DNA of 64,000 nucleotides from Hoeflea sp. (lineage in GTDB: Bacteria; Pseudomonadota; Alphaproteobacteria; Rhizobiales; Rhizobiaceae), in assembly GCF_002733955.1 (NCBI RefSeq), contig NZ_NVXQ01000008.1, positions 62,001 to 126,000 on the forward strand, in the 5' to 3' direction. Made by a program: the position numbers and the translations under genes. Below are positions 20,598 to 41,934 of the stretch, piece by piece. Numbering within the stretch: position 1 is the stretch's first letter; each line of letters starts with the position of its first letter. The notes beneath the pieces were generated by a model. The model saw only the letters and a program-made list of their open reading frames with translations. It had not been told where the DNA came from and did not search any database.

Positions 20598-20615
20598 GGT
20601 GTCTGCCTCCCTTTC

Positions 20616-23157: not shown

Positions 23158-23649
23158 CTATTCAGCTGCGACCTTTGCTCCGTCGCCCATCTTGGACGCC
23201 GCATCGAGCACTGCCTTGACGATGTTGTGGTAACCCGTGCAGCGGCAGATATTGCCTTCGAGTTCCGCGCGGACGGTTTTCTCGTCCAGCTGACCGCCAT
23301 GCCGTTCGATCATGTCGACAGCCGACATGATCATGCCCGGTGTGCAAAATCCGCACTGCAGGCCGTGGTGCTCGCGGAACGCCGCCTGCACCGGGTGCAA
23401 TTCGCCACCCGAAGACAGGCCTTCAATCGTCACAACCTCCGAGCCGTCCGCCTGCGCGGCCAGCATTGTGCACGATTTCACGGCCTTGCCGTCGACATGG
23501 ACCACGCAGGCCCCGCATTGGGACGTGTCGCATCCGACATGCGTTCCCGTCAGCCCGAGATTTTCCCGGATGAATTGAACCAGAAGAGTCCGATCCTCGC
23601 ATTGGCCGGAAACGGAGCGCCCGTTCACGGTCATAGATACATTCGCCAT
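23158..23649 (-). CDS. Molybdenum hydroxylase [2Fe-2S] small subunit (CoxS-like)
   Basis: The 163-residue iron-sulfur subunit has a plant-ferredoxin-like cluster ([10 protein letters not shown] plus a later Cys in KSCTML) and a second cluster in CGFCTPGM and [10 protein letters not shown]. The start [10 protein letters not shown] has a GGAGG site upstream. It is the first gene of the S-L-M operon; a 193-base gap to the large subunit holds no other gene that I can support. Confidence 0.92.
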
Positions 23650-23699
23650 AAAATTCCTCCCTGGGTGTACAGACCTCACTCACCCTGAAGGCATCATTT

Positions 23700-24160: not shown

Positions 24161-25210
24161 ATGAAGAAACGCAATTTCCTGAAATCCGCTGCTGTTGCAG
24201 CACTCGCCCTGTCCGCCATGGGCGCATCGTCGATCGGCGCTGCCGCGCAGGAAGTCACCCTGCGCATGCACCAGTTCCTGCCCGCGCAGGCCAACGTGCC
24301 CGCCGGCATTCTCATTCCCTGGGCTGAAAAGATCGGCACCGAATCTGGCGGCCGCATCAAGGTCGAAGTCTTTTCGGCCATGTCGCTTGGCGGCACCCCG
24401 CCACAGCTGATGGACCAGGCCCGCGACGGCGTCGTCGACATCGTCTGGACCCTGCCGGGCTACACGCCGGGCCGTTTCCCGAGCGTCGAAGTGTTCGAAC
24501 TTCCCTTCACCATGACCAACCCGGAAGCCACGTCCCGCGCCTATTGGGAACTGTTCAAGTCCGACATGGAAGAAACCGAGTTCAAGGGCGTCAAGATCCT
24601 CGCCACCTGGGTCCACGGTCCCGGCGTCATCCACTCCAAGGGCGAAGGCATCCGCAAGCTCGAAGACATGCAGGGCAAGAAGATGCGCGGACCGACCCGC
24701 GTCATCAACGGCCTGCTTGCCGAGCTCGGCGCCGAGCCTGTCGGCATGCCTGTGCCCGCCATCCCCGAAGCGCTTTCCAAGGGCGTGATCGACGGAACGG
24801 TTATTCCGTGGGAAGTCACCCCGGCCCTGAAGGTTGCCGAACTCGTGGACACTCACACCGAGTTCTCCGGTGACACCGCGCTCTACACCGCAGCCTTCGT
24901 GCTGGCGATGAACCAGGCCAAGTACGACAGCATGCCTGACGATCTCAAGAAGATCCTCGACGACAACACCGGCGCCGAGTTCTCCGCCTATGCCGGCAAG
25001 ACCATGGCAGGCTACGATGCCGGCGCCCGCGGCATTGCCGAGGCCACCGACAACGAAATTGTCGTGCTGGACGAAGCTGAAGTGGCGCGCTGGAAGTCGG
25101 CTGCCGAGGTCGTGCTCGACAACTGGTTCGAGGAAATGGACGCCAAGGGCATCGACGGCGAGGCGCTGTACGAAAAGGCCCAGGAACTGATCGCGAAGAA
25201 CTCCAACTGA
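24161..25210 (+). CDS. dctP: TRAP transporter solute-binding protein DctP (system 1)
   Basis: The 349-residue periplasmic binding protein begins with a signal peptide (MKKRNFLKSAAVAALALS..., cleavage near residue 29). The KRNFLK start resembles a Tat signal. Family features include RGPTRVINGLLAELGAEPVGMP and a conserved Arg that binds the ligand carboxylate. A strong GGGAGGA site precedes the ATG. It heads dctP-dctQ-dctM. The ligand is likely an organic anion; sulfolactate is possible because the suy operon is next door (TRAP systems are known for sulfolactate), but the promoter type differs from the suy genes. Confidence 0.92.
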   Translation: MKKRNFLKSAAVAALALSAMGASSIGAAAQEVTLRMHQFLPAQANVPAGILIPWAEKIGTESGGRIKVEVFSAMSLGGTPPQLMDQARDGVVDIVWTLPGYTPGRFPSVEVFELPFTMTNPEATSRAYWELFKSDMEETEFKGVKILATWVHGPGVIHSKGEGIRKLEDMQGKKMRGPTRVINGLLAELGAEPVGMPVPAIPEALSKGVIDGTVIPWEVTPALKVAELVDTHTEFSGDTALYTAAFVLAMNQAKYDSMPDDLKKILDDNTGAEFSAYAGKTMAGYDAGARGIAEATDNEIVVLDEAEVARWKSAAEVVLDNWFEEMDAKGIDGEALYEKAQELIAKNSN

Positions 25211-25227
25211 CGCGGTCGGATTGAAAA

Positions 25228-25265
25228 CCCCGGCGGGCCTGGCTGCAAAAGCCGTTCCCGCCGGG
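25228..25265 (+). terminator. Stem-loop between dctP1 and dctQ1 (attenuator-like)
   Basis: CCCGGCGGG pairs with CCCGCCGGG; the loop holds a second small stem GGCT/AGCC. It lies 18 bases after the dctP1 stop, followed by an AT-rich stretch. Such hairpins commonly lower expression of the membrane genes relative to the binding protein in TRAP operons. Confidence 0.55.
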
Positions 25266-25377
25266 ACATTATTGGTCCGAGATGACAACGGGTCGGCGGA
25301 CCGGATCGGCTGGTTGATGAAGATGGCCAAAGAGATCCGCAGCAAACCGCCTTCGTGGCCACACCCGGAGATTTCAG

Positions 25378-25908
25378 ATGTTTGACCGGATTGACCGCTT
25401 GATGCGGTCCCTCGCAGCTTTCCTGGCCATTCTCGGCGGGCTGGCACTAATTGCCGTCATCCTGGCGACCGTGACCTCTGTCTCCGGACGCGCCCTGCTC
25501 TGGGCCGGGCTTGGGCCGATACGCGGTGACTTCGAACTCGTCGAACTCGGGACCGGTTTTGCAGTGTTCGCGTTTCTGCCCTGGGTTCAGATCAACCGCC
25601 AGCATGCATCGGTGGAAATCCTGACCATGCATCTTGGCGACACCGCCAACCGTGTGATCGACATGGTCTCCGATCTTCTGATGCTCGCAATAGCGCTGCT
25701 TCTGACTTGGAAACACTGGGACGGCACACTCGACAAACTCGCCTATGGCGAAACCACTTTCATCATCCAGTATCCAATCTGGTGGGCCTATGCCTCCGGA
25801 CTTGTCGGGGCAATCGGATTTGTCCTGGTCAGCACCTGGTGCGTGATCCTGAGCGCCCGGGCACTGGTGAGCGGCCAGAACCAGTCCCATGGAGAGACGG
25901 TACATTGA
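25378..25908 (+). CDS. dctQ: TRAP transporter small permease DctQ (system 1)
   Basis: The 176-residue protein has four predicted membrane helices (about 12-35, 55-75, 95-115, 135-160) and the QINRQHASVEI loop typical of DctQ. It connects the binding protein to the DctM permease. Its stop overlaps the dctM start (TTGA), so the two are translationally coupled. Confidence 0.9.
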   Translation: MFDRIDRLMRSLAAFLAILGGLALIAVILATVTSVSGRALLWAGLGPIRGDFELVELGTGFAVFAFLPWVQINRQHASVEILTMHLGDTANRVIDMVSDLLMLAIALLLTWKHWDGTLDKLAYGETTFIIQYPIWWAYASGLVGAIGFVLVSTWCVILSARALVSGQNQSHGETVH

Positions 25909-27227
25909 GCAATATCGACATCGCGCTTCTCTCCTTTCCCGTTCTCCTGCTGATGATTTTCCTGCGGGTGCCGATCGGGCTCGCCATGCTGCTCGCCGGC
26001 ATCGGTGGCAGCTATTTCATCAATGGCTCGTTCCTGATGATCTTCGCCCAGCTCAAGAACCTGACCTGGGGCACATTCTCCAGCTATTCGCTCTCCATCA
26101 TCCCTCTGTTCCTGCTGATGGGCCAGTTCGCCACCCTGGGCGGCATGTCCCAGGCCCTGTTCAAGGCAGCCGAGACCTGGATGGGCCACAAGAAGGGCGG
26201 CGTTGCCATGGCCGCCGTCGGTGCCTGTGCTGGCTTTGGCGCGATCTGCGGTTCGTCGCTGGCAACGGCTGCCACCATGGGCCAGGTCGCCCTGCCCGAA
26301 CTCAAGCGCTACGGCTATTCCGGCGAGCTTGCCACCGGTGCGCTGGCAGCCGGCGGCACCCTTGGCATTCTCATCCCGCCGTCGGTCATTCTCGTCATCT
26401 ACGCCATCCTGACCGAACAGAACATCGCCAAGCTCTTCGTCGCAGCCTTCATTCCGGGCATCCTGGCGGCAATCGGCTACATGATCGCCATTGCAATCTA
26501 TGTCCGGCTCAAGCCCGGTTCTGCCGGTCAGCGCGAGCGCGCCCCCTATTCCGAGCGTTTCCGCAGCCTGATCGACGTCTGGCCGGTGCTGCTCGTCTTC
26601 ATCGCCGTCGTCGGCGGGATCTATGGCGGCATCTTCACCCCGACCGAAGCAGCTGCCATCGGTGCCTTCGGCACCGGGCTGATCGCGCTCGTCAATGGCG
26701 GCTTGAACAAGGCGACGCTGAAAACCTCGATTCTCGCCACCGCCAGCGCCACAGGAATGATCTTTCTCATCGTCTTCGGCGCGGGCGTCTACAACGCCTT
26801 CCTGGCGCTCAGCCAGTTGCCTCAGACCGCCGCCGCCTATGTCGGCAGCCAGGGCTTCAACCCGTGGCTGGTAATGGTTGCCGTGCTGCTGCTCTATCTC
26901 ATCTTCGGCTGCATCATGGACTCGCTGTCGATGATCCTGCTCACCGTGCCGATCTTCTTTCCGATCATGTCGGCGCTCGATTTCGGCCTGACGCCGGAAG
27001 AATTCGCCCTCTGGTTCGGCATCATCGTGCTGATCGTGGTCGAGGTCGGGCTGATAACGCCACCGGTGGGGATGAACCTCTTCGTCATCAATTCGATGGC
27101 CAAGGACACACCGCTCTCGGCCACCTATCGCGGCGTATTCCCGTTCGTCATGACCGACATCATCCGGGTCGCCATCCTGACCATGTTCCCGGCCATCACC
27201 CTCGTCGCCGTCAGATTGCTATACTGA
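25905..27227 (+). CDS. dctM: TRAP transporter large permease DctM (system 1)
   Basis: The 440-residue permease has 12 or so hydrophobic helices and drives sodium- or proton-coupled uptake. Family segments include GFGAICGSSLATAATMG, PPSVILVIYAILTEQNI, GGIFTPTEAAAIGAFG and the C-terminal LITPPVGMNLFVIN. The start is a TTG at 25905 that overlaps the dctQ stop; a longer open frame upstream belongs to another reading of dctQ. It is convergent with the suy operon, 42 bases from comC. Confidence 0.93.
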   Translation: MSNIDIALLSFPVLLLMIFLRVPIGLAMLLAGIGGSYFINGSFLMIFAQLKNLTWGTFSSYSLSIIPLFLLMGQFATLGGMSQALFKAAETWMGHKKGGVAMAAVGACAGFGAICGSSLATAATMGQVALPELKRYGYSGELATGALAAGGTLGILIPPSVILVIYAILTEQNIAKLFVAAFIPGILAAIGYMIAIAIYVRLKPGSAGQRERAPYSERFRSLIDVWPVLLVFIAVVGGIYGGIFTPTEAAAIGAFGTGLIALVNGGLNKATLKTSILATASATGMIFLIVFGAGVYNAFLALSQLPQTAAAYVGSQGFNPWLVMVAVLLLYLIFGCIMDSLSMILLTVPIFFPIMSALDFGLTPEEFALWFGIIVLIVVEVGLITPPVGMNLFVINSMAKDTPLSATYRGVFPFVMTDIIRVAILTMFPAITLVAVRLLY

Positions 27228-27269: not shown

Positions 27270-28274
27270 TCACGTGCCGATCGCGCGGATGGCAGCTTCC
27301 AGCTCCGCATCCACCGGGATGCCGTTCGCGAGATACTCGCTGCGGATCTGCTGCCGCCGGCGTCCGGGCACACGCGCACCTTCGGTACCGGCAACCATAT
27401 CGGCCATCAGCGCCATGCGCTCTTCGCCCCCCGCTCCGAACGCATCCGGATCAATCGCGATAATTGCCTGACCGGTGCCCGGCGGATCGCCCTTGTCATC
27501 AAAGAACGAGGTCGCCTGCCAGGCGTAGTTCGCGCCGGTCAACCCGGCGCAGAGCAGCTCCACCATCAGGGCCAGGGCCGTGCCCTTGGCGTCCCCGAGC
27601 GGGATCATTGTCCCCGCCATTGCAGCCTTGGCATCCGTCGTCGGCTGGCCATCGGGATCGAGCGCCCAGCCTTCCGGGATCGGATCGCCCTTCTGCGAGG
27701 CCGCCATGATCTTGCCGCGCGCCACCTTGGACAGCGAAATATCCACCACCACCGGCGCACCGTTGGAAACCGGTGCGGCAAAGGCGATCGGGTCGGTGCC
27801 GAATAGCGGCCGGTTCCCACCCCAGGGCGCCATCGCCGCCGGCGCATTGGCCACCATCAGCGCAGCGACCCCGCGCTCGGCCAGCGCCTCGACAATCACA
27901 CCGGCAACCCCGCAATGATGCGAGCGACGAATGCCGGCAATGGCAATGCCTTGCGCCTTTGCTGCTTCTGGCAGCCAGTCGAGCGCCAGGTCCATCGCCG
28001 GATAGGCAAACCCGTTGCCGGCATCGATTGCCAGTGCGCCGGGCCGTGTCTGTTCGGATGACGGCACCGCGAAGCCATCCACCTTTCCGGCCAGCGCCTG
28101 GGCCGAATAGGCTGCCACCCGCCGCAGGCCATGGCCGTTCTGCCCGGCAAGTTCGGCTGCCAGCAGTGCACGCGCCACCGATGCGGCATTGGCTTCCGAT
28201 GTCCGGCTCCGGGTCAGCGCCCCGGTTATCAGATCGGTGACCGCTTCCGGTGTCATTGTCAGCATGTCGCTCAC
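27270..28274 (-). CDS. comC: (R)-sulfolactate dehydrogenase-like, Ldh2/MDH family (ComC type)
   Basis: The 334-residue protein is of the Ldh_2/malate-L-lactate dehydrogenase family, with the typical SHHCGVAG (catalytic His region), GGNRPLFGTDPIAFA and VVDISLSKVARGKI segments. In sulfolactate degraders ComC reduces sulfopyruvate to (R)-sulfolactate with NAD(P)H. The assignment rests mainly on context: it is the last gene of suyA-suyB-slcC-comC and overlaps slcC by ATGA. By sequence alone it could be another 2-hydroxyacid dehydrogenase such as ureidoglycolate or malate type. Confidence 0.82.
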   Translation of the reverse strand: MSDMLTMTPEAVTDLITGALTRSRTSEANAASVARALLAAELAGQNGHGLRRVAAYSAQALAGKVDGFAVPSSEQTRPGALAIDAGNGFAYPAMDLALDWLPEAAKAQGIAIAGIRRSHHCGVAGVIVEALAERGVAALMVANAPAAMAPWGGNRPLFGTDPIAFAAPVSNGAPVVVDISLSKVARGKIMAASQKGDPIPEGWALDPDGQPTTDAKAAMAGTMIPLGDAKGTALALMVELLCAGLTGANYAWQATSFFDDKGDPPGTGQAIIAIDPDAFGAGGEERMALMADMVAGTEGARVPGRRRQQIRSEYLANGIPVDAELEAAIRAIGT

Positions 28275-29203
28275 GCCTTGCTCCCCAGCACTTCAAGCAC
28301 CTTGTCAGCAATCAGATGGCTGACCCGCTCGTTCGATTCATCCGTAACCCCGGCGATATGCGGCGTCAGCACAAGATTGCCCAGCCCCTTGAATTTCGCG
28401 CCCGCCTCGGCGGTCAGCGGTTCGGTCTCGAACACATCAAGTGCGGCCCCACCCAGCCTGCCGGCCTTCAGCGCTTCTGCCAGCGCGGCCTCGTCGACGA
28501 TGCCGCCGCGCGCCGCATTGATCAGGATCGCATCCGGCTTCATTCGTGACAGTGCGGCCGCATCGATCATGTTCCGGGTCGCATCGGTAAGTGGCGTGTG
28601 CAGAGACACCACATCTGAGAGTTCCAGCACCGCATCAAGCGACACGTTGCGGGCGATCTGCCAGCCCGGATGATCCGCCATCAAATAGGGATCACAGGCC
28701 ACGATCTGCATGCCCATCATGTGCGCCCGCCAGGCAACCTCGCGGGCAATCGAGCCATAGCCGACAAGGCCGATGGTCTTGCCGGCAAGTTCGCGGCCCA
28801 TCATCGATTGCCGCGGCCAGTCGCCCGCAGCCACGTCTGCCGAGCGCAGGAACGCGCCGCGCAACAGCATCAGCGCCGAGGTGATCACATATTCGGCCAC
28901 CGAAAGATCATTGGCCCCGGTCGCGGGAATCACTCTGACCGAGCGCGTCTTGCAGGCAGCTACATCGATATTGTCGAGCCCGACACCAAGCCGCCCGACC
29001 ACACGCAGTTTCGGCCCCATGCCCAGAAGCGTCTCGCGCACCTGGGTCCGGTTACGCACGATCAGCGCCCGCGCCGACGCAAGATGCTCATGCAATGCCG
29101 CCGGGTCATCGACCAGTTTCGGGTCGTAGACCGTGTCATGAGTCTGGACGAGGCGGCCAACCGCCGCCTCGTCCATGAATTCGGTAATGACGATATCTGC
29201 CAT
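28271..29203 (-). CDS. slcC: (S)-sulfolactate dehydrogenase-like 2-hydroxyacid dehydrogenase (SlcC type)
   Basis: The 310-residue protein is a D-isomer-specific 2-hydroxyacid dehydrogenase with NAD motif GLVGYGSIAREVA and catalytic Arg, Glu and His in NAARGGIVDE, ALDVFETEPL and LTPHIAGVT. In the Chromohalobacter type of sulfolactate pathway SlcC oxidises (S)-sulfolactate to sulfopyruvate. It sits between suyB and comC. A phosphoglycerate dehydrogenase role is unlikely because the protein lacks the C-terminal ACT and ASB domains. Confidence 0.83.
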   Translation of the reverse strand: MADIVITEFMDEAAVGRLVQTHDTVYDPKLVDDPAALHEHLASARALIVRNRTQVRETLLGMGPKLRVVGRLGVGLDNIDVAACKTRSVRVIPATGANDLSVAEYVITSALMLLRGAFLRSADVAAGDWPRQSMMGRELAGKTIGLVGYGSIAREVAWRAHMMGMQIVACDPYLMADHPGWQIARNVSLDAVLELSDVVSLHTPLTDATRNMIDAAALSRMKPDAILINAARGGIVDEAALAEALKAGRLGGAALDVFETEPLTAEAGAKFKGLGNLVLTPHIAGVTDESNERVSHLIADKVLEVLGSKA

Positions 29204-29228: not shown

Positions 29229-30410
29229 TTAAGCGGAACGATAGAGCTTTGTCATGGAGAATTCACGGTGCCCCAGCGCTTCCGCTGCGGTGGCCCGGCC
29301 GTTCGAAGTACGCACGATCATTTCGATCAGCGAATCGCCGGCTTCGGCAATCGTCATTTCACGCGTCAGCACGCCGGTCACGTCCACGTCGATATGTTCG
29401 CTCATGGTGCGCAGGGTGCGCGGATTGCCCGAGATCTTGATCACCGGCACAATCGGATTGCCAACCACATTGCCCTGCCCGGTCGGGAAGGTGTGGATCA
29501 CCGCGCCACCGGCAGCCATCAGGGTGACGCATTCAGCGGCTGCCGAAGACGAGTCCATGAAATAGAGACCGTTACCGGATTGCGGGGCTTCGGCTGGCTC
29601 CAGAATGTCGATGAACTGCGAGGTGCGGCCGATCTTCTCGAGATTGCCCAGCGCCTTTTCCTCAATGGTGGTCAGGCCACCCTCGATATTGCCCTTGGTC
29701 GGCTGGCTGTCGGAAAGGTCGTCCGTCTGGTGCGCGAAGATGACGTCGTTCTGATAGGCTTCCCACATCTTGTACCAGCGCTCGCCGACGTCCTCGTTGA
29801 TCGCGCGCGTCTTGCAGATGTGCTCTGCCCCGGTAATCTCGGATGTTTCGCCGAAGAAGCCGGTGATCCCTTCGGGCAGCAGCTTGTCATACATATTGCC
29901 GACCGTCGGGCACGAACTCAGGCCCGTGGTGGTGTCACTCTCACCGCATTTGGTCGAGACCCACAATTCCGAGATCGAGCATTCCTCGCGCTGCAGCTCG
30001 GAAGCAAAGTGCACATATTCCTTGGCCACCCGGGAAGCGTCCATGATGGTCTTGAGATCGCCATTCTGCTCGATCGAGAGACCGGTCACAGGCTTGCCTG
30101 TGGCGGCGATGCCGTCGACGATCTTCTTGGTCCAGCCCGGCTCGATGCCGATCACCACCACGGCCGCAACATTCGGGTTCGATCCGGTGCCGATCATGGT
30201 GCGGAAATGGACATCAAGGTCTTCGCCGAACTGCAGCCGGCCATAGGCATGCGGGATTGCCAGTGTGCCCTTGATGTTGTTGGCCACGGCCTCGCAGGCC
30301 GCATTGGAAATGTCGTCAACCGGCAGGATGACCACGTGGTTGCGGACGCCGACACGGCCGTTCTCGCGCCGGTAGCCTTGAAACGTCATGTTTGAATATT
30401 TCGTTGCCAT
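29229..30410 (-). CDS. suyB: (R)-sulfolactate sulfo-lyase large subunit
   Basis: The 393-residue protein belongs to the altronate/galactarate dehydratase (UxaA C-terminal) family. It begins with [21 protein letters not shown], which is typical, and has conserved Cys residues in [17 protein letters not shown] that bind iron. With SuyA it cleaves (R)-sulfolactate to pyruvate and sulfite. Separate small and large subunits, together with SlcC- and ComC-like genes, favour SuyAB over altronate dehydratase. It lies 11 bases after suyA, with a GGAG site. Confidence 0.87.
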
Positions 30411-30421: not shown

Positions 30422-30709
30422 CTACCAGCGTTTGGTTTTCAGATTGTGTGTGTGGACGTGGGCGCCCTTTTCCACATCGGCGACAAACTTGCCGATGTCC
30501 TCGCCATACTTGATCGCAGTGTCGCCGGACTTGATGTCCTTGAGCGCGATCTTGTGGCCAATCGGCACATCCGCTTTCGAGGCCAGCTCGAAACTCGAAT
30601 TGTCATGCGTGACGACACAGAGCATCGTGGTTCCGGCCTTCAGGCCCTCGACAACGACGACGCCGACATTGTCAGCGTGGTCATGGACTAGCAAATGAGG
30701 TGTGGTCAC
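30422..30709 (-). CDS. suyA: (R)-sulfolactate sulfo-lyase small subunit
   Basis: The 95-residue protein is a SAF-domain protein like the N-terminal part of altronate dehydratase: [23 protein letters not shown], then IPLxD-like [11 protein letters not shown] and the closing [11 protein letters not shown]. The start is GTG with a perfect GGAGG seven bases upstream. It is the first gene of suyA-suyB-slcC-comC and is preceded by the 14-bp operator 52 bases before the start. Confidence 0.87.
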
Positions 30710-30774: not shown

Positions 30775-30814
30775 ATAAGATATGGTATGGACGAAAAGTC
30801 AACCGGGGCAGAGC

Positions 30815-31576
30815 ATGGAAAAGAAGAAACAGATGTCGAGCGGCGCAGAAACAGCAGCAGGCGATGCGATTGGCTTCAAGCCGCTCTATGCCCAGGTCCG
30901 CGAACAGCTGATGCGGCGACTGGTCGACGGGGCCTGGCTGCCCGGCATGCTGCTGCCCAGCGAGATGGAACTGGCGCGCCAGCTCAATGTCAGCCAGGGC
31001 ACGGTTCGCAAGGCGCTGGATTCGATGACGGCGGACAATCTGCTCCTGCGCCGCCAGGGCCGCGGCACCTATGTCGCCGAGCCGGAGGAAAGCCGGATCC
31101 TGTTCCAGTTCTTCCGTCTCTCCCCCGATGAAGGCAACCCCAGCTTTCCCGATTCAAAGGTCCTGAGCACCAGCACCGCCACCCCGACGAAAACAGAAAA
31201 GCAAGAGCTCGGCCTCAACGACACCGATGAAGTCATCCGCATCGAACGCATCCGCTCGCTGGCCGGAGAGCCGATCCTGATCGAAACCATCACGCTGCCA
31301 ACCAACCGGTTTCCCGATTTCGATCACCTGACGATCATCCCGAACAATGTCTACAGGCTCTATTCCGAGCGCTGGGGCATCACCATCGGCAGCGCCGAGG
31401 AAAGGCTCAAGGCGATTGCCGCCAGTGCCCGCGATGCCGCCAAGCTGGGATGCGAGCAGGGAGAGCCGCTGCTTCTGATCAGCCGCGTCGCCCGCGATCT
31501 GGAAAACCGCCCGGTCGAACTGCGCTGGTCACGCTGCATAAGCCGCGACATCCATTATTCGGTCAATCTGCGGTGA
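30815..31576 (+). CDS. GntR-family (HutC subfamily) transcriptional regulator
   Basis: The 253-residue protein has an N-terminal winged helix-turn-helix (about 20-85: PLYAQVREQLMRRL, LPSEMELARQLNVSQGTVRKALD, RRQGRGTYVAE) and a C-terminal UTRA ligand domain (about 100-250, with ERIRSLAGEPILIETITLP). I chose the ATG at 30815, preceded by GGGGCAGAG; an ATG at 30782 is also in frame but lies only 7 bases after the operator. It is divergent from suyA and probably controls the four operator copies. The effector may be sulfoquinovose, its phosphate or sulfolactate; this is inference. Confidence 0.9.
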   Translation: MEKKKQMSSGAETAAGDAIGFKPLYAQVREQLMRRLVDGAWLPGMLLPSEMELARQLNVSQGTVRKALDSMTADNLLLRRQGRGTYVAEPEESRILFQFFRLSPDEGNPSFPDSKVLSTSTATPTKTEKQELGLNDTDEVIRIERIRSLAGEPILIETITLPTNRFPDFDHLTIIPNNVYRLYSERWGITIGSAEERLKAIAASARDAAKLGCEQGEPLLLISRVARDLENRPVELRWSRCISRDIHYSVNLR

Positions 31577-31579
31577 GCC

Positions 31580-32665
31580 TTACAGGCTGATCGCTGCCCC
31601 GCTCTTGGCCGATTGCTCCGCCGCAAGCCCGATCCGCACCGCCTTCAGCCCATCCTCGAGAGACACTTCGGGAACGCCGCCACTGCGGATCATCTCGAGA
31701 AATTTCTGGTGCTGGAAATAGGTCGATCCGTGGTGATCACCCACCGCCAGGATCGCGGCATCGACATCGACGATCTCGCGCTGTTCGAGCTTGCTGGCGC
31801 GCGGCGACAGCACGAATTCCGAATGCCGCTCCTTGCCGTCGGCGGAAAACCGCGACGGCCCCGGCACGAAGGCCTCCGCCTTGGCGACATCACCGGTAAC
31901 GGCAATAGCCTCCTGCCAGCCTGAGCCTTCGGCAAACATGCACAGATCCAGCATGGCGCGCACGCCATTGGCGAAATCGACCACCACGAAGGCATTGTCG
32001 AGGATATCCGGACGCTGCCCGTCATAGTCCTCCTCTAGAAAGTTCACGTCAGCCCCGCCCGAGGCATAGACGCGCACCGGCTCGGCCTCGGCGATCAGCC
32101 GCATCAGATCGAAGAAATGGCAGCATTTTTCCACCAGCGTGCCGCCGGTCTTGGCTGCGAAGCGGTTCCAGTCGCCAACCTTGGCGAGGAAGGGGAACCG
32201 GTGCTCGCGGATCGAGATCATCCGCGGCGTTCCGGTTTCGCCTTTACGCACAGCCTCAAGCAACCGTTCCACCGGCGGCATGTAGCGGTATTCCATCGCC
32301 ACCCAGACCTGCGACACCCGCCCGGCGGCGCGCGCAAGGATGTCCTCGCAATCGGCCAGCGTCGTGCACAGCGGCTTCTCCACCAGCATCGGCAGATCCG
32401 CCGGCAGCACATCCTTCAGGATCCCGTGGTGCAGATGGTTCGGCGCGGCAATTACCAGCGCGTCACACAGCCCGGAATTCAGCAGTGCGGCATGATCGCC
32501 AAACTGGGCACAGTCCGCACCGGCCATGAATGCGGCACTCGCACGCATGCCCTCGTCCGGATCGCAGACCGCCGTCACCCGAGCTCCCTCGAGCAGCCTG
32601 AGTGTCCTGATATGCTCCTGCCCCATCATGCCCGAGCCGATGATGCCGTATCTGAGTTCTGTCAT
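31580..32665 (-). CDS. Gfo/Idh/MocA-family protein, candidate NAD-dependent sulfoquinovosidase or dehydrogenase
   Basis: The 361-residue protein has the Rossmann motif GIIGSGMMGQEHIRTLRLL, the family EKP motif in LVEKPLCTT near residue 95, and a substrate domain with the notable segment GGTLVEKCCHFFDLMRL. Most members are NAD(P)-dependent sugar oxidoreductases. From memory, a glycosidase family (GH188) with this type of fold hydrolyses sulfoquinovosides using NAD+; the context here makes that worth testing. It lies 27 bases after the isomerase-like gene on the same strand and is convergent with gntR, three bases apart. The exact reaction cannot be read from sequence. Confidence 0.8.
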   Translation of the reverse strand: MTELRYGIIGSGMMGQEHIRTLRLLEGARVTAVCDPDEGMRASAAFMAGADCAQFGDHAALLNSGLCDALVIAAPNHLHHGILKDVLPADLPMLVEKPLCTTLADCEDILARAAGRVSQVWVAMEYRYMPPVERLLEAVRKGETGTPRMISIREHRFPFLAKVGDWNRFAAKTGGTLVEKCCHFFDLMRLIAEAEPVRVYASGGADVNFLEEDYDGQRPDILDNAFVVVDFANGVRAMLDLCMFAEGSGWQEAIAVTGDVAKAEAFVPGPSRFSADGKERHSEFVLSPRASKLEQREIVDVDAAILAVGDHHGSTYFQHQKFLEMIRSGGVPEVSLEDGLKAVRIGLAAEQSAKSGAAISL

Positions 32666-32692: not shown

Positions 32693-34087
32693 CTAGAGAT
32701 GAATAACCGGCAGCCCGGCGGCAGCGGCAAAACTCTCGAGCGTCGAGACATGATCCCCATAGGCGAGCGCCATGTGATGCTCGAGCCCGCTGTCGATCAC
32801 CCGCGCAAGCATCTCCTGCGCCGGGCGCTCGAATTTCACCACGCCGGAGGTGCCGGTAAACGCCATCTCGCGCTTGAGCATCTCGCCCCGCGCGATGATC
32901 AGGCTCTGCTGCCCACGCGCCTGGCTCAACCGCACGAAGGTCACTGGCCCCGGCTTGAGCGGAAACTCGAGCAGCAGCGGCATCTTGCGGTTGGTGTGGA
33001 TCGTGGCCCGCGCCACCACCTCCGGATCCGCCATCGATATCGGGGCCTGGCCGCAATGCCAGACCACACCGGTGTCATCGCTCGCATCCAGGTCCACCAG
33101 ATCGACCAGGAACACCGGCTGATCGCTCGCCGCCTGCAACAGCAATTGCGTCGCCGCACCATAGACATCGGCCTCGCAGGCGCAGGGCACCCGGCCCTCG
33201 CCCATCATCGAGGCCGGACCACAGACAGCGCCGCCATACTCAGTGAATGTTTCCGGCCAGCAACGGATGGCGAAGGCGTCGAAGCCGCCATCTGCCTTCA
33301 TCCCGTCAAGTGCCAGCTTGAGCCGCAACGAACGGTCGAGCTCCACCTGATCGACCTCGTCCATACCCGAAAGATGGCCGCCAATCTCGGCCTTCAGCCC
33401 GCGGGCAGCACTCTCGGGAGCCGATCGCGCCCGCTCAAACAGCTCCGGCAGTTCAAAGCCGGTCACCTTCATGCCGGTCAGCTTTGCCAGTTCCGCGCTG
33501 TCATAGGCGCAGGTGTCAAAGCCGTCCGGGTGCGCACCGATCCGCGCAATGCTCTTGCCCGAAAGCCCTGCCAGCAAGGCCGCACCGAATGCAGGATCGG
33601 CCTGTGAAACTTCTGCAATCAGCGGAGAAACCATCGGCGCGCCGGCAAGCAGCACCTCGATACCCGGAGTATGGGGCGCGGCATAACGCCAGGAAAACAG
33701 CCGTCTGCGCAGCCCCAGCGCGTGCGACGCCAGATTGAGGCCGCAGAAGGCATTGAGCCGCAGCCGCCCGCCGAGCCGCGGCTCCGGAACCGCCCAGATC
33801 GACAGCGGCTGAGCAAACGCATCCGAGATACGGCAGGTCATCGCGGCATCGGTGAAGGTGACCTGCAGGATGATGATGCGGTCCGGATTTTTGGCCCTGA
33901 TGTCGGCCATCGCGGCTTCGGTCGAGGCAGCATCCATCAACAGCGTCCCGGGCCCCACAAGGTGGTGGCCGGTGGCCTCGAGATCGGCCATCATGCCGGC
34001 CAGCATCTCTTCGGCGAACGCCACATCGAAGGTTGGCCGGCCCAACGGCAGGACGCCCAGGGTCAGAGTTTTACCGGACATCGACAT
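32693..34087 (-). CDS. L-fucose/arabinose isomerase-like protein, candidate sulfoquinovose isomerase
   Basis: The 464-residue protein has the look of the L-fucose/L-arabinose isomerase fold: N-terminal GVLPLGRPTFDVAFAEE, a middle part with ILQVTFTDAAM, and a C-terminal metal-site-like part with WPETFTEYGG...CGPASMMGEG and PCACEADVYGAATQLLL. Such proteins interconvert aldoses and ketoses. With a sulfofructose-kinase-like gene and a YihT-type aldolase nearby, the likely reaction is sulfoquinovose to 6-deoxy-6-sulfofructose. It is unrelated to E. coli YihS. The aldolase gene lies upstream on the same strand, separated by a gene on the other strand. Confidence 0.75.
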   Translation of the reverse strand: MSMSGKTLTLGVLPLGRPTFDVAFAEEMLAGMMADLEATGHHLVGPGTLLMDAASTEAAMADIRAKNPDRIIILQVTFTDAAMTCRISDAFAQPLSIWAVPEPRLGGRLRLNAFCGLNLASHALGLRRRLFSWRYAAPHTPGIEVLLAGAPMVSPLIAEVSQADPAFGAALLAGLSGKSIARIGAHPDGFDTCAYDSAELAKLTGMKVTGFELPELFERARSAPESAARGLKAEIGGHLSGMDEVDQVELDRSLRLKLALDGMKADGGFDAFAIRCWPETFTEYGGAVCGPASMMGEGRVPCACEADVYGAATQLLLQAASDQPVFLVDLVDLDASDDTGVVWHCGQAPISMADPEVVARATIHTNRKMPLLLEFPLKPGPVTFVRLSQARGQQSLIIARGEMLKREMAFTGTSGVVKFERPAQEMLARVIDSGLEHHMALAYGDHVSTLESFAAAAGLPVIHL

Positions 34088-34729: not shown

Positions 34730-35764
34730 TCAGCCGAAATCGCCATAGCTGTGCCGGAAACTCTCGTCCGCCGGCGCAAACCGCGCGCCATCCGGCCCGA
34801 ACACCGCATGCCTGTCCCAGGGCGTTGCCGCCTGATCGGTCAGCGCGTTGAGATCGCGCATGTAATCAACCGACCCGGTTTTCAGCCCCTCCCGCATTCC
34901 GTCCCAGTCCGGGTAAAGCCCGAAGGGTTCGAGCCAGATCGCCCGGCCCGCCAGATAGCCCGATGCGCCCGCCCGGTAGGCATGATTGAGAATATTGCGG
35001 AACTCGGCCTTGCCGGCGCCCGCTGACAGCATCACCCAGGGCCGGCCGGCAAGCCGTCCCATTTCATCAAAGGCCGCCTGCACTTGTGCGTCCTCCCCTT
35101 CGGGAACATCCTTGGCCGCAACCGGGCTTTCCAGCTTGAACACGTCGATCCCGAACTCCGGCGCGGCGAAATCCGCCACCGACTGCAACACGTGATCAGT
35201 GCGCTTGCCGGTCATCTCGACGTAGTCCGTGGTCTGGTGCGCGTCGCTCTTGAGCGGATAGACCAGAAGCTCGAACAGGAACGGAATGTCATGCCGCGCA
35301 CAGGCCTCGCCGATCCGCTTGGTGAAATCCTTCTGCTTCTGGCAAATGTGTCCGGGCGCATCGGGCCGGTACCAGGCCAGCACCTTGACCGCGTCGCCAC
35401 CCATCCGCTTGATCTTGGCCACCGACCAGTCGTCGATCTCGCTCGACAGCCGCCCCTCCGGCGTCTCCTCGAACACCGAATCCTCCAGCGTCACGATCAG
35501 CCCCTTGGCCGGAGACAGTTTGCCGATCCCGCGCGGAATGGCGTAATGCGGATCGAGCAGCATCGCCGAGGATTGCCCCTGCAACGTCTCGATCAAAAGG
35601 GTCTTGAAATCGGCCACCTCCTGCCACGGCGCTTCGGCAACCCCATGATGCTTGGCAATCGGCCCCTTGATCGGCGGCCGCTGGTCCACCGCCGTCATCT
35701 TGAACAGGCCATTGTCATCGGCCATGCGGCGCATGCCCCATAGCTTTCCCGCGCTTAGCTGCAT
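34730..35764 (-). CDS. LacD/YihT-type class I aldolase, candidate sulfofructose-1-phosphate aldolase
   Basis: The 344-residue protein is of the tagatose-bisphosphate aldolase (LacD) family, to which E. coli YihT (6-deoxy-6-sulfofructose-1-phosphate aldolase) belongs. Shared features are MTAVDQR near the N-terminus, the Schiff-base Lys in IDVFKLESPV near residue 210, and GASGYLAGRAIW near the C-terminus. It would yield sulfolactaldehyde and dihydroxyacetone phosphate. Its start overlaps the end of the kinase gene by 10 bases, so the two are coupled. It is longer than YihT (about 292 residues) because of extra loops and tail, so tagatose-bisphosphate activity is the main alternative. Confidence 0.82.
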   Translation of the reverse strand: MQLSAGKLWGMRRMADDNGLFKMTAVDQRPPIKGPIAKHHGVAEAPWQEVADFKTLLIETLQGQSSAMLLDPHYAIPRGIGKLSPAKGLIVTLEDSVFEETPEGRLSSEIDDWSVAKIKRMGGDAVKVLAWYRPDAPGHICQKQKDFTKRIGEACARHDIPFLFELLVYPLKSDAHQTTDYVEMTGKRTDHVLQSVADFAAPEFGIDVFKLESPVAAKDVPEGEDAQVQAAFDEMGRLAGRPWVMLSAGAGKAEFRNILNHAYRAGASGYLAGRAIWLEPFGLYPDWDGMREGLKTGSVDYMRDLNALTDQAATPWDRHAVFGPDGARFAPADESFRHSYGDFG

Positions 35765-36660
35765 GACTGAGCCTCTTTCATGAAGGTTTCGGTTTCTGCG
35801 CGCGTCGGATAACCGGCACGGCCATTGATCCGGGTGCATTTGATGGCGGCAACGGCGCTGGCAAAACGGATCGCCTCGGGCGGCGAGGCACCCTCGCCCA
35901 GCCGCAGGGCGAAAGCGCCGTGCCAGACGTCACCTGCCCCCAGCGTATCCAGCGGCGTAATCGCATAGGCAGGCTCAAAGCCCGACGCTGTGCCGTGCCG
36001 CCAGGTAACGCCCTTGGCGCCATCGGTCACGCACACAAACGCACCGGTTTCCGCCGCGACATCATCGAGCGCGGCGTCGAGATCCTCATGTTCTGCCCAG
36101 TCGCGCAGCCCTTGCGCTGAAAACGCGACATGACTTGCAAGATGCAGCGCCGCTTCCGCCTCGCGGATCGGCGCTTCGCCATCCAGCACGCCGGGCACGC
36201 CACGCCTGCGCGCAGTCCGCATCAGCACCTCGGCCCCGTCCGGCCATCTTGTATCTGCCAGCGCCGCATCGAAATCATCCGGAAGTGCGGCCAGCAGCCA
36301 GCCTGCATTCATCGGCAGCTCGGGATCTCGGAAATTGACGATCTGACGTTCCCCCGCCTGATCGATGAAGACCGACGAAAACGACGATCGCCGCCCCTCG
36401 AAGCGCTTCAGCATGGTGCAGTCGACGCCGTCGGCTTCAAGCCCGGCTGCAATCATGTCCGCCACCTGGTCCGAGCCGAGACGGCTCGCCAGCATCGCAT
36501 GCCCTCCCAGCCGCGCAATCGCCGCCGCCGCATTGGCTGCGCCGCCGCCGCCGGTGATTTCCGCACCCTTCGCCCGGTATTTTTCAGCCAGCCGCGGCAT
36601 CTCGTCGAGATGAAAGACGAAATCCATCACGGCGACCCCGGTGGTCACGATCTTTGTCAT
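35755..36660 (-). CDS. PfkB-family sugar kinase, candidate 6-deoxy-6-sulfofructose kinase (YihV-like)
   Basis: The 301-residue protein resembles E. coli YihV closely by eye: N-terminal TTGVAVMDFVF, GGGGAANAAAAIARLG, ADTRWPDGAEVLM (YihV has a matching ADVRWHDGA), the GAGD catalytic motif in DTLGAGDVWHGAF near residue 245, and SAVAAIKCTRINGRAGYPT (YihV: ASGVAALKCTRPGGRAGIP). It would phosphorylate sulfofructose at C1 with ATP. The start at 36660 gives a family-sized protein. It heads the kinase-aldolase unit and is preceded by operator copy 2 at 66 bases. Confidence 0.85.
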   Translation of the reverse strand: MTKIVTTGVAVMDFVFHLDEMPRLAEKYRAKGAEITGGGGAANAAAAIARLGGHAMLASRLGSDQVADMIAAGLEADGVDCTMLKRFEGRRSSFSSVFIDQAGERQIVNFRDPELPMNAGWLLAALPDDFDAALADTRWPDGAEVLMRTARRRGVPGVLDGEAPIREAEAALHLASHVAFSAQGLRDWAEHEDLDAALDDVAAETGAFVCVTDGAKGVTWRHGTASGFEPAYAITPLDTLGAGDVWHGAFALRLGEGASPPEAIRFASAVAAIKCTRINGRAGYPTRAETETFMKEAQSCS

Positions 36661-38846: not shown

Positions 38847-39926
38847 TTACTGCATGTCCTTCATCGCACCGTTGTCGATCATCTCGGAAGCCTTTGCGGC
38901 TTCGGCGACCAGCAGGTCATAGAAGGTCGCGCCGCCCTGGACATTGGTCTTGAACCATTCGAAGACCGGCGTTGCGGCTTCCTTGAACTGGGCTTTTTCT
39001 TCCATCGTCGGCACATAGACCGAACCGCCGTCCTCGGTGAAGGCCTTGTAGGCCTCGATCGACTTGCGCTTGGGCGAGGCGAATGTCGCCTGCTGCAGGG
39101 CGGCAAAACCATCGACCACGACCCGGCGCAGGTTCTCGTCCAGCCCCATGAAGCGGTCATTGTTCATGTACCACAGCGCGCCCATGTAGGAGTGACCGTC
39201 AAGCGTGAGATACTTCAAGCCGGCATCTGGGAACTTCATTCCCATGATGTCGGTGATGCCGTTCTGGGTGCCTTCAACCACGCCGGTCTGGAACGAGGTG
39301 AACAGTTCCGGCCACGGGATCGGCGTCGGTGAAGCGCCCATCGAGCGCACCAGTTCCTGCGGCAGGTCGGCAACCACGGTGCGGATCTTCAACCCTTCCA
39401 TGTCGGACGGCGATCGGATTTCGCGCTTGGTGTTGGCAAAATTGCGCCAGCCACCGGTGTTGCCGATGGTCATCAGCCGGATCATGTCGCCGGAATCGGC
39501 CAGCATCTGCTCGCGCAGCGCCCGGGTGAAGGTACCTTCGGTCAGCACGGCTTCGGCAATACGGTCATCACGCAGCAGGTAGGGCAGATCCAGCACCTGC
39601 ACGTAAGGGAAGATCCCCGACGCGCCGCCGGAGGTGGAGATGTAGATGTCGATCGAGCCGTCGGCGATGCCCTGCAGGCATTCGGCCCCGGTCGAGCAGA
39701 GCTGTGTTCCAATGAACAGCTCCACTTCGATGGCGCCGTTCGAAGCCTTCTCGACGTAATCCTTGAACACGATGAGACCGTCATAGTCCTCGTCGTTTTC
39801 ATTCGAGTTTGCCGTGGCCCGCAGCTTGATGTCGGCCGCCTGTGCAGCCGATATCATGCCGCCCGCCAGAACCGTCAGGCCCAGTGCAGCCGCCGTCAGT
39901 GTTTTCATTGCCTGTTTCAAGATCAT
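38847..39926 (-). CDS. TRAP transporter solute-binding protein DctP (system 2)
   Basis: The 359-residue binding protein starts at the ATG at 39926 (MILKQAMKTLTAAALG...), with GGGAGG upstream and signal cleavage near AQAA. Family features include YVEKASNGAIEVELF, and the later EGTQNGITDI and GLKYLTLDGHSYMGALWYM. Two Cys (LCSTGAEC) could form a disulfide. It has its own promoter with operator copy 3, 35 bases upstream, although it follows dctQ2-dctM2. The ligand is likely the substrate of this cluster, sulfoquinovose or a glycoside of it; this is inference. Confidence 0.9.
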   Translation of the reverse strand: MILKQAMKTLTAAALGLTVLAGGMISAAQAADIKLRATANSNENDEDYDGLIVFKDYVEKASNGAIEVELFIGTQLCSTGAECLQGIADGSIDIYISTSGGASGIFPYVQVLDLPYLLRDDRIAEAVLTEGTFTRALREQMLADSGDMIRLMTIGNTGGWRNFANTKREIRSPSDMEGLKIRTVVADLPQELVRSMGASPTPIPWPELFTSFQTGVVEGTQNGITDIMGMKFPDAGLKYLTLDGHSYMGALWYMNNDRFMGLDENLRRVVVDGFAALQQATFASPKRKSIEAYKAFTEDGGSVYVPTMEEKAQFKEAATPVFEWFKTNVQGGATFYDLLVAEAAKASEMIDNGAMKDMQ

Positions 39927-39961
39927 CGATAACCCTCCCGTTGAGACCTGTTTGTGTTCTT

Positions 39962-39975
39962 GTCTTATATAAGAC
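39962..39975. promoter_or_regulatory. 14-bp palindromic operator, copy 3 (dctP2)
   Basis: An exact copy of GTCTTATATAAGAC, 35 bases before the dctP2 start, in the gap after dctM2. It gives the binding-protein gene a promoter of its own, under the same control as the upstream permease genes. Confidence 0.85.
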
Positions 39976-40047
39976 ACAAGATTGATGACGCGTCTGGTCT
40001 TGTCAACCGCACGTCTTGCCCGACCTTCGATGTCGCCCGCATGACAC

Positions 40048-41337
40048 TCACCGGGCAAAGCCGAACAATTGCGGCATGAACAGCGAGATCTGCGGAATGA
40101 AGGTGATCAGGAAGATCACCACCACTTCCACCAGCAGGAAGGGCAGAATTGCCTTGGCAATGGTTTCCACCCGTTCACCCGACACGCTGGAGGTGACAAA
40201 CAGCACCAGCCCCATCGGCGGCGTCGCCAGCCCGACTGTCAGGTTGACACTCATGATGATGGCGAAATGCACCGGGTGAACCCCGAGATCGGTAAAGATC
40301 GGCCCCAGGATCGGCCCCAGGATGATGATCGCCGGCCCGGCATCGAGAAACATCCCGACGATGAACAAGAGCACATTGATCAGGAACAGCAGAATATAGG
40401 GATTGTCCGACAGGCCGAGAATGAAATTGGCCAGAACTTCCGGCGTGTGCGACAGGCTGACCACGGTCTTGAACGCCATCGCAGCCCCCACCAGAAGCAG
40501 CACCACCGACGTGGTCATCGCGGCCTTGGTCAGCACCTTCGGAAGATCCGCCCATCCCATGGTCTTGAGGATGAACATTGCCACGATCAAGGCATAGACG
40601 GCGGCGACCGCGGAGGCTTCCGTCGGCGTGAACACCCCGCCCAGGATACCGCCCAGTATGATCACCGGCGTCAGCAGCGGGAAGAAGGCCTTCAGGCTCG
40701 CCTGACCGCGTTCGGGCCAGGTCGCCTTGTGCGCGGCAACGGGAAATCCGTGCCGCCTGGCAAGAAAGCCGACGACGCTCATCAGGCCGACGCCGACCAG
40801 AACGCCAGGCACGATGCCGGCGAGGAACAGTGCCGCAACGGATTCCCCCATCACATAGGCATAGATGATCATGATCCCAGAGGGCGGGATGATCGGCCCG
40901 ATCACCGATGATGCCGCCGTCACCGCAGCCGCGAACTTGCGGCTGTAGCCGTTCTTTTCCATCGCCGGGATCAGCATTGACCCCAGTGCCGAAACATCCG
41001 CGACAGCCGAACCGGAGAGGCCAGCAAACAGCATCGAGGACAGAATATTCACATGCGCCAGACCGCCCTTGAGGTGCCCGATCATCGCCTGGCTGAACTC
41101 GACGATCCGCATGGTGATGCCGCCGCGGTTCATCAGCTCGCCCGCCAGCATGAAGAATGGGATCGCCATCAAGGGGAACGAATCCATACCGGTGTAGACA
41201 TTGCGGTAAAGCAGCGCCAGATCGCGCTCCTGGCCATTGAGCCAGAGCAGGAAACCGGGCGCTGCCAGCATGCCGAAGAACACCGGCAGGCCGATCATCA
41301 GAAAAATCAGGAACAGCGGCAGGAAGAAGAACAGCAT
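40048..41337 (-). CDS. TRAP transporter large permease DctM (system 2)
   Basis: The 429-residue permease has about 12 helices and family segments SGSAVADVSALGSMLIPAM, GPIIPPSGIMIIYAYVMGESVAA, GGVFTPTEASAVAAVYA and NLTVGLATPPMGLVLFV. It lies 3 bases after dctQ2 and so belongs to dctQ2-dctM2. Confidence 0.92.
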   Translation of the reverse strand: MLFFFLPLFLIFLMIGLPVFFGMLAAPGFLLWLNGQERDLALLYRNVYTGMDSFPLMAIPFFMLAGELMNRGGITMRIVEFSQAMIGHLKGGLAHVNILSSMLFAGLSGSAVADVSALGSMLIPAMEKNGYSRKFAAAVTAASSVIGPIIPPSGIMIIYAYVMGESVAALFLAGIVPGVLVGVGLMSVVGFLARRHGFPVAAHKATWPERGQASLKAFFPLLTPVIILGGILGGVFTPTEASAVAAVYALIVAMFILKTMGWADLPKVLTKAAMTTSVVLLLVGAAMAFKTVVSLSHTPEVLANFILGLSDNPYILLFLINVLLFIVGMFLDAGPAIIILGPILGPIFTDLGVHPVHFAIIMSVNLTVGLATPPMGLVLFVTSSVSGERVETIAKAILPFLLVEVVVIFLITFIPQISLFMPQLFGFAR

Positions 41338-41340
41338 GGC

Positions 41341-41934
41341 CTATTCCACCGCCACGATCATGCGGTCACGATCATCGGGCAGGTCTGCCTCCGGATTGAT
41401 GATATGGGCACAGGCCTTGAGGCACAGCTCGACATTGACAAGGCACATCAGCAACAGCCCGACCGGCAACGACATGTACATCCAGGCCAGCTTGATCCGC
41501 ACCAGCCCCAGCCCAAGAAACTCAAGCGGCAGCTTCAGCGAGCTCGAGTTGAACAACCAGCCCGACTTGACGTGATTGAGTCCGAGCTGGAACCCGTAAA
41601 CCAGCACGGTCAGCGATACCGCCAGTAGGCAGAGACCCAGAAACGCACCGATCCGCGCCGGCAGCAGGTCCTTGACCATCTCGATCGAGACGAAACCGCC
41701 CCAGCGATAGGCAGACGGCGCGATCAACGCCGTCATCCACAACATCAGGAAGCGCGCGCCCTCGTCCGGCCAGGCAAGCGCACTGCCGACAATGTAGCGG
41801 AAGAACACCTGCAGGATGATGATCAGCACCATCAGGCCCATGGCCACCCAAGCGAATGTCCGCCCCAGGCGCAAGAACAGCGTGTTGAGAGCCGCCAGCG
41901 GCTTGAGCAACGCCAGAATAACCGTCATGGTCAT
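41341..41934 (-). CDS. TRAP transporter small permease DctQ (system 2)
   Basis: The 197-residue protein has four membrane helices and the family segment YIVGSALAWPDEGARFLMLW. It is the first gene of dctQ2-dctM2 and is preceded by operator copy 4 at 39 bases. Confidence 0.88.
   Translation of the reverse strand: MTMTVILALLKPLAALNTLFLRLGRTFAWVAMGLMVLIIILQVFFRYIVGSALAWPDEGARFLMLWMTALIAPSAYRWGGFVSIEMVKDLLPARIGAFLGLCLLAVSLTVLVYGFQLGLNHVKSGWLFNSSSLKLPLEFLGLGLVRIKLAWMYMSLPVGLLLMCLVNVELCLKACAHIINPEADLPDDRDRMIVAVE

Follow-up and report, generated by a model that had tools for sequence, protein, structure and literature searches.

Racemisation of sulfolactate by the dehydrogenases SlcC and ComC, together with its cleavage by the sulfo-lyase SuyAB, was reportedly described by Denger and Cook in 2010 in Chromohalobacter salexigens. 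Here we examine the corresponding gene pair, slcC and comC, in a 64,000-nucleotide stretch of a Hoeflea sp. contig (NZ_NVXQ01000008.1, positions 62,001 to 126,000; hereafter the window), where it lies 3' of suyAB. Passages of PMC9594981, PMC6303947 and PMC5812351 cover the C. salexigens system, in which the same two dehydrogenase roles adjoin suyAB; there they are coupled to the importer slcHFG, whereas the window carries tripartite ATP-independent periplasmic (TRAP) transporters and a sulfosugar module. The stereochemistry, the preference of SuyAB for (R)-sulfolactate and the SlcC and ComC activities in Chromohalobacter are taken from the literature; our own analysis concerns gene families, their order, conservation, co-occurrence and mutual exclusion. 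We conclude that slcC and comC very probably flip the handedness of sulfolactate, allowing complete breakdown of the plant-sulfolipid sugar in one cell. The pair is genuine and of a familiar kind, and the inversion itself is already known.

Several described systems share more than the pair with the window. The tandem sulfofucolytic-sulfolactate sulfolyase pathway of Paracoccus wurundjeri, as set out in passages of PMC12421959, joins sulfosugar breakdown to SlcC, ComC and SuyAB in one cluster as the window does, and those passages likewise identify no sulfolactaldehyde dehydrogenase; it handles sulfofucose with Entner-Doudoroff enzymes, whereas the window encodes a GH188 enzyme with an isomerase, a kinase and an aldolase. 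An actinobacterial GH188 cluster, Y160, holds according to parts of PMC11465081 a GH188 enzyme, a fucose isomerase, a sulfofructose (SF) kinase, a sulfofructose-phosphate (SFP) aldolase and both sulfo-lyase subunits, again as in the window, and its 'D-3-phosphoglycerate dehydrogenase' is perhaps SlcC-like. The same parts name no ComC, and the 'sulfolactate dehydrogenase' they mention may be a sulfolactaldehyde (SLA) dehydrogenase, whereas the window has a ComC; Y160 also has an SLA dehydrogenase and ATP-binding cassette transporters, in contrast to the TRAP transporters of the window and the leucine found there at the variable sulfonate position. The Yih and SqvD forms of the sulfo-Embden-Meyerhof-Parnas pathway (sulfo-EMP and sulfo-EMP2), including the hybrids covered in passages of PMC9594981, pair kinase and aldolase families with an SqvD-type isomerase as here; their by-product is 2,3-dihydroxypropane-1-sulfonate (DHPS) or sulfolactate, whereas the window has carbon-sulfur cleavage genes in the same cluster. 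The combination of slcC and comC beside suyAB occurs, by the account in those passages, in most sequenced Paracoccus. SlcC/ComC racemisation, SuyAB, the sulfo-EMP enzymes, GH188 and the tandem sulfosugar-sulfolyase pathway are all already published. New here are ten related sugar operons that carry slcC without comC or suyAB, most of them in genomes that encode ComD, so that related bacteria appear to have a second way to finish the pathway, with one of the two genes.

The two open reading frames (ORFs) lie on the minus strand exactly where the initial annotation had placed them (Table 1), and they belong, as it said, to unrelated families: comC matches PF02615 (Ldh_2) at 315.6 bits against a cut-off of 38.8, and slcC matches the 2-Hacid_dh families PF00389 and PF02826 at 79.9 and 189.9 bits. 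The overlap described for them does exist and is four bases long, but its letters are GTGA and not ATGA, the GTG start of comC lying over the TGA stop of slcC; the next in-frame ATG of comC is nine bases inward, and with a start there the overlap vanishes. The order on the minus strand is suyA, suyB, slcC, comC, with a SAF-domain small subunit adjoining a GD_AH large subunit, as expected of SuyAB, and with a GntR regulator reading divergently. We surveyed the best 80 of at least 593 confirmed SuyB loci, which are 82-92% identical and not a random sample. Genes in AT-rich loci escaped a simple gene caller, so presence was scored by tblastn at identity thresholds of our own choosing; counts by gene family are lower bounds. 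A suyA homologue lies just upstream of suyB in all 80 loci. Where slcC is present it is followed by a comC homologue in 27 of 28 loci, with 0-84 bases between the match ends; in the single exception (L038) the contig, 4.6 kb long, stops about 0.8 kb past the slcC start. Such pairing far exceeds what chance would give.

The strongest support for the inversion idea comes from the genes that replace slcC. According to passages of PMC11131964, HpsN converts (R)-DHPS to sulfolactate. If SuyAB requires (R)-sulfolactate, a cluster supplied by HpsN should have no use for SlcC, whereas one supplied with the (S) form should depend on it. Of the 80 SuyB loci, 28 have slcC and 43 have hpsN, while only one has both and 10 have neither (Fisher p = 5e-12), and the exclusion holds in the 53 loci with full flanks alone (p = 4e-9), although the loci are related and these p-values overstate their independence. 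The hpsN label was assigned by context, from PF00815 in one representative and from adjoining short-chain dehydrogenase and zinc-dehydrogenase genes. Two opposite-handed dehydrogenases working through sulfopyruvate, as had been suggested for this pair, are supported by this mutual exclusion together with the separation of SlcC from the phosphoglycerate dehydrogenase of the same genome (see below). The exclusion also offers a simple annotation rule for which enantiomer of a C3 sulfonate feeds a suyAB cluster. The sole joint locus, L080, has an hpsN-type DHPS set and slcC/comC side by side with one suyAB. We also considered comC as a marker of inversion and rejected it: among the 80 loci, weaker homologues (40-56% identity) occur in 27 that lack slcC, 24 of them with hpsN. 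The discriminating gene around suyAB is slcC, not comC.

SlcC has a 2-hydroxyacid dehydrogenase fold and is distinct from SerA. Its top matches in PDB and NCBIfam are phosphoglycerate dehydrogenases, but it reaches only 272.4 bits against the 454-bit cut-off of the phosphoglycerate dehydrogenase model TIGR01327 (NCBIfam), whereas the SerA of the same genome (L092) scores 670.7 bits. Among 72 distinct SlcC homologues of 49% identity or more, all 72 read V-R-N-x-T where the genome's own SerA reads I-R-S-A-T. According to passages of PMC6303947, the arginine of this Arg-Ser motif binds phosphate, and the SlcC of C. salexigens falls within or beside the SerA subfamily and does not accept 3-phosphoglycerate. 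In a quick maximum-likelihood tree that included five of the seven 2-hydroxyacid dehydrogenase paralogues of the genome (L097 and L098 were filtered out), the 72 SlcC rows form one group with SH-aLRT support of 96, apart from the five paralogues and with long branches between. The group takes in G383 and G308, from another class of the same phylum, where the order is suyB, tripartite tricarboxylate transporter (TTT), slcC, comC. The proposed activity of SlcC is NAD+-dependent oxidation of (S)-sulfolactate.

For ComC, the NCBIfam equivalog of L-sulfolactate dehydrogenase (NF040650) gives 183.2 bits, under its 500-bit cut-off; the model may not cover bacterial ComC, so the miss weakens the name rather than the role. 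The best solved relative is a piperideine-2-carboxylate reductase, and the L-sulfolactate dehydrogenase 2x06 comes fourth of 13 PDB matches. Given this miss and the distance of the solved relatives, the function of ComC is read from its context. Its charged residues E41, H48, R52, K64, D84, H120, E129, D178, R186, K230, E239 and R301 are at least 97% conserved over 57 homologues of 56% identity or more.

Upstream of the sulfolactate genes, the window has a set of genes that point to a sugar as the source of sulfolactate. One of them, a Gfo/Idh/MocA oxidoreductase according to Pfam, encodes, as judged from its alignments, an NAD+-dependent sulfoquinovosidase of family GH188: its best PDB matches are 8qc2 (392.1 bits), 8qc3 (391.8 bits) and 8zn9 (381.5 bits), and the next protein scores 70.7 bits. 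Passages of PMC11465081 name 8QC2 as GH188 and place its sulfonate site at R166, L170 and K172, and this R-x3-L-x-K triad (Arg166, Leu170, Lys172) is present in 45 of 45 distinct GH188 homologues, the window included. The residues Lys107, Tyr136, Glu189, His193 and His321 of 8qc2, which are the GH188 sugar contacts according to passages of PMC10755693, also align in the window protein (by eye, assuming a chain offset of 13). For the kinase, the sulfofructose kinase 7ag6 heads 51 PDB matches with 202.7 bits, against 154.1 for the next. Aldose 1-epimerase (mutarotase) genes of the family found in the window occur in 8 of the 80 SuyB loci as well, all with slcC, and in many related sugar clusters. 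Of the two TRAP transporters, the one beside the sugar genes has a dctP homologue upstream of those genes in five of five congeners with the isomerase.

The association between the two modules was then followed through 394 genomes of the family. The gene slcC is found in 45 of the 50 genomes that have the isomerase and in 33 of the 344 that do not (p = 4e-32); this two-by-two comparison assumes that both searches covered the same 394 genomes, which agree in size and handles, and the 45 joint cases were checked separately. Counted by genus, slcC occurs in 24 of 26 genera with the isomerase and in 11 of 83 without. In 32 of the 45 joint genomes the two genes are within about 10 kb of each other; the other 13 do not show such proximity, in some owing to contig ends, and five isomerase genomes have no slcC. 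These figures suggest that complete mineralisation of sulfosugars within one cell is common in alphaproteobacteria, whereas the combination of sulfosugar breakdown and carbon-sulfur cleavage in one bacterium was called unusual in passages of a 2025 paper (PMC12421959). The initial annotation had argued that the pair makes sense only with an (S) or racemic substrate and hence indicates a sugar. That is too strong: the pair also occurs in TTT loci without sugar genes, in C. salexigens according to the literature, and in the congener G644. A sugar origin in the window is nevertheless likely; what speaks for it is not the pair but its neighbours, which encode a sulfoquinovosidase, an isomerase, a kinase and an aldolase, together with the co-occurrence of slcC and the isomerase.

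A second arrangement of slcC bears on the same question. In ten sugar operons (G692, G468, G401, G458, G417, G533, G539, G511, G478 and, from another family, G067) slcC comes after the sugar genes; suyAB does not intervene, and the available stretch shows no comC beyond slcC, contig ends limiting some of these views and that of G468 most. The alpha subunit of sulfopyruvate decarboxylase, ComD (TIGR03845), is above cut-off in eight of these ten genomes and in none of 42 other genomes examined, five of which (G768, G738, G565, G673 and G621) have ComD-like matches below cut-off at 79-108 bits. The comD gene is within about 125 bases of slcC in G067, G533, G511 and G539 and on another contig in the remaining four, and it is followed by the beta-subunit gene comE, above cut-off, in both loci tested (L199 of G067 and L181 of G511). 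The G533 locus (L178) is a sulfosugar operon that runs from slcC into comD, without comC or suyAB. SuyB was searched for and not found in five of the ten. Of the SlcC proteins from these operons, nine fall in the tree in one weakly supported set with two rows of suyAB type, and the tenth elsewhere, all inside a larger group of suyAB type; that label fits only loosely for G438, which is 76% complete and yielded no SuyB, for G262, because of contig ends, and for G453, whose suyB is on a different contig.

An slcC gene without comC or suyAB, with ComD in eight of ten genomes, fits SlcC making sulfopyruvate. On the simplest reading of these gene sets, SlcC would act in both settings on sulfolactate derived from the sugar, giving sulfopyruvate, and ComDE, with the sulfoacetaldehyde acetyltransferase Xsc, would replace ComC and SuyAB. 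We lean towards the view that alphaproteobacterial mineralisation of sulfosugars passes through SlcC as a shared entry gate and then leaves by either of two interchangeable exits, ComC with SuyAB (to pyruvate and sulfite) or ComDE with Xsc. If so, the second exit would take sulfopyruvate to sulfoacetaldehyde and on to acetyl phosphate and sulfite in one cell, with no need of chiral inversion. The bifurcated sulfolactate pathway of Roseovarius nubinhibens reportedly has a sulfoacetaldehyde acetyltransferase exit, as proposed here for the ten operons, and is not known to be coupled to sulfosugar genes. Xsc was rejected as a discriminator of the second exit, being above cut-off in nine of the ten genomes and in nine of 12 of the window type. 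Two genomes count against the two-exit view: G401 and G417 have no ComD above cut-off and no adjacent suyAB, with SuyB elsewhere, and G417 also has no Xsc above cut-off. We found no literature on a sulfosugar operon ending in ComDE, in a search that judged many papers by listing or passages and scarcely covered subscription journals. The two-exit pattern is a directly testable prediction and the part most worth following.

Taken together, the window probably encodes a tandem sulfoquinovose pathway that ends in SlcC/ComC inversion and SuyAB cleavage; we infer from the gene content both the substrates of these particular enzymes and the sugar as the main source of sulfolactate. In this pathway the GH188 enzyme SqgA would free sulfoquinovose from its glycosides, and the mutarotase and the SqvD-like isomerase would turn it into sulfofructose. 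The PfkB kinase would phosphorylate sulfofructose and the aldolase would split the product into dihydroxyacetone phosphate and (S)-sulfolactaldehyde, which an aldehyde dehydrogenase encoded elsewhere would oxidise to (S)-sulfolactate. SlcC would then convert (S)-sulfolactate to sulfopyruvate, ComC would reduce this to (R)-sulfolactate, and SuyAB would cleave (R)-sulfolactate to pyruvate and sulfite.

A number of observations weigh against this pathway, beginning with the low ComC score given above. No gene linked to the cluster in the window accounts for the oxidation of sulfolactaldehyde. In six of the 80 SuyB loci comC is followed, in the same orientation, by a gene for an aldehyde dehydrogenase resembling succinate-semialdehyde dehydrogenase, and in a seventh (L041) such a gene lies on the other strand, one of these having been scanned; the window cluster has no such gene, and the nearest in the genome are unlinked (59%, and 63% over 388 amino acids). 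The isomerase reaches 258.8 bits against the sulfoquinovose isomerase model NF048012, short of its cut-off of 700, and is taken to work like a sulfoquinovose isomerase by context only. The aldolase, scanned from an earlier start at 35839, scores 341.5 bits against the tagatose 1,6-diphosphate aldolase model PRK12858 (cut-off 184), and YihT structures are the last three of its 13 PDB matches. With the isomerase so far under its cut-off and the aldolase grouped among tagatose-1,6-bisphosphate aldolases, the assignment of the sugar as sulfoquinovose is provisional. The congener G644 (L289) keeps homologues of comC, slcC, suyAB, gntR, the second TRAP transporter (TRAP1), the kinase and the mutarotase, but its locus gives no match to GH188, the isomerase, the aldolase or the DctP of the TRAP transporter beside the sugar genes, and the isomerase is found nowhere in its genome; the locus looks like a natural partial deletion. 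Finally, most hpsN loci also have an hpsP homologue, which might supply (S)-sulfolactate too. HpsP with GabD-2 converts (S)-DHPS to sulfolactate according to passages of PMC11131964, from which we infer that (S)-sulfolactate could also arise from (S)-DHPS. As the product of HpsP and GabD-2 is presumably (S), hpsN clusters may need slcC as well, and the exclusion counts cover the loci themselves.

We considered a molybdenum hydroxylase at 20616-22964 (full set 19797-23679) as the sulfolactaldehyde dehydrogenase, given the likeness of sulfolactaldehyde to glyceraldehyde: its best NCBIfam match is the glyceraldehyde dehydrogenase alpha subunit (661.5 bits, cut-off 790). It was rejected as pathway-specific because it is widespread, with large-subunit matches (E of 1e-200 or below) in 49 of the 54 genomes searched, including G441, which has neither isomerase nor slcC, and because the matches outside the genus are unlinked, located either on different contigs or at distances above 80 kb from the cluster.

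The alternative that survives best changes only the name of the sugar. Another 6-sulfohexose, for instance sulfofucose broken down through sulfotagatose, would leave the inversion as it is and would be compatible with the rest of the pathway. The filing of the aldolase and the fucose-isomerase fold of the isomerase favour it, as does P. wurundjeri, which grows on sulfofucose and whose cluster has a kinase and an aldolase of these two families. In the same passages of PMC12421959, however, that kinase and aldolase were not significantly raised on sulfofucose, the work being done by Entner-Doudoroff enzymes, and the sulfoquinovose-binding positions of GH188 align with the window protein and are conserved. 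We therefore regard a different sulfohexose as a minor but real contender.

That the pair serves racemic or (S)-sulfolactate from outside, entering through an importer such as TRAP1, with the sugar genes beside it by coincidence and excreting or otherwise using their products, seems to us unlikely. A TTT importer of the slcHFG type, which carries sulfolactate in C. salexigens and Roseovarius according to passages of PMC5812351, is present in 10 of the 28 slcC loci; only six of the 28 have two or more of the four sugar genes in their flanks, the other 22 showing no sugar module there. In the family, 33 of the 78 slcC genomes lack the isomerase, and G644 has retained TRAP1 and the sulfolactate genes at a locus that gives no GH188, isomerase or aldolase match. 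Against an external source stand the presence of slcC in nine-tenths of the isomerase genomes, mostly nearby, and its position directly after the sugar genes in the ten operons described above. Moreover, TRAP1 has a dctP homologue in seven of seven congeners, including G441, which lacks slcC, and so is not tied to sulfolactate. Four loci with slcC and a TTT importer (L075, L076, L080 and L081) also have an enolase-superfamily protein and, in all but L080, a tartrate-dehydrogenase-like gene; another hydroxyacid or a sulfosugar acid is a possible substrate there. It is highly improbable that the two genes have no role in sulfolactate, slcC encoding a dehydrogenase for phosphoglycerate or another hydroxyacid and comC one of malate or ureidoglycolate type: the top matches of SlcC and the ComC score and nearest structure point that way, but the genome has its own SerA, SlcC falls under the phosphoglycerate dehydrogenase cut-off with R-N for R-S throughout, and the linkage to suyAB is tight and the exclusion of hpsN mutual.

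The features of the window are collected in Table 1, in which the DctQ and DctM of TRAP1 were assigned by position and size.

Table 1. Genes of the sulfolactate and sulfosugar modules in the window
Feature	Position	Strand	Basis
TRAP1, second TRAP transporter, convergent with comC; may import organic acids or sulfolactate	24161..27227	+	PF03480 for DctP
comC, dehydrogenase of the Ldh_2 family; as a proposed (R)-sulfolactate dehydrogenase it would reduce sulfopyruvate to (R)-sulfolactate	27270..28274	-	PF02615, NF040650 below cut-off, 2x06 match
slcC, 2-hydroxyacid dehydrogenase; as a proposed (S)-sulfolactate dehydrogenase it would oxidise (S)-sulfolactate to sulfopyruvate	28271..29203	-	PF02826/PF00389, VRNxT motif, tree
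suyB, sulfolactate sulfo-lyase large subunit	29229..30410	-	PF20629/PF04295
suyA, sulfolactate sulfo-lyase small subunit (SAF domain)	30422..30709	-	PF08666
GntR/UTRA regulator, divergent from suyAB	30782..31576	+	PF00392, PF07702
sqgA, NAD+-dependent sulfoquinovosidase GH188 (Gfo/Idh/MocA fold)	31580..32665	-	8qc2/8qc3/8zn9 matches, sulfonate triad
SqvD/SftI-like sulfosugar isomerase (fucose isomerase fold)	32693..34087	-	NF048012 below cut-off, PF02952
LacD/YihT-type aldolase, proposed sulfo-ketose-1-phosphate aldolase	34730..35734	-	PRK12858, YihT structures
PfkB kinase, proposed sulfofructose kinase (YihV-like)	35755..36660	-	7ag6 best PDB match
TRAP transporter DctP/DctM/DctQ, proposed importer of sulfosugar or sulfosugar glycoside	38847..41934	-	PF03480, PF06808, PF04290
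Aldose 1-epimerase (mutarotase)	42040..43050	-	PF01263, 256 bits

Two further genes lie among those of the sugar module. Between the kinase and the TRAP genes, at 36789-38138, is a MauG-like di-haem protein (TIGR03981, 255.2 bits, cut-off 340), homologues of which occur in some, not all, related sugar clusters. Between the aldolase and the isomerase, and antisense to the operon, a conserved ORF of 195 amino acids (34128-34715, plus strand) gives a PRK06193-type match of 59.3 bits against a cut-off of 178, and is also present in the congeners G644 (81%) and G441 (76%).

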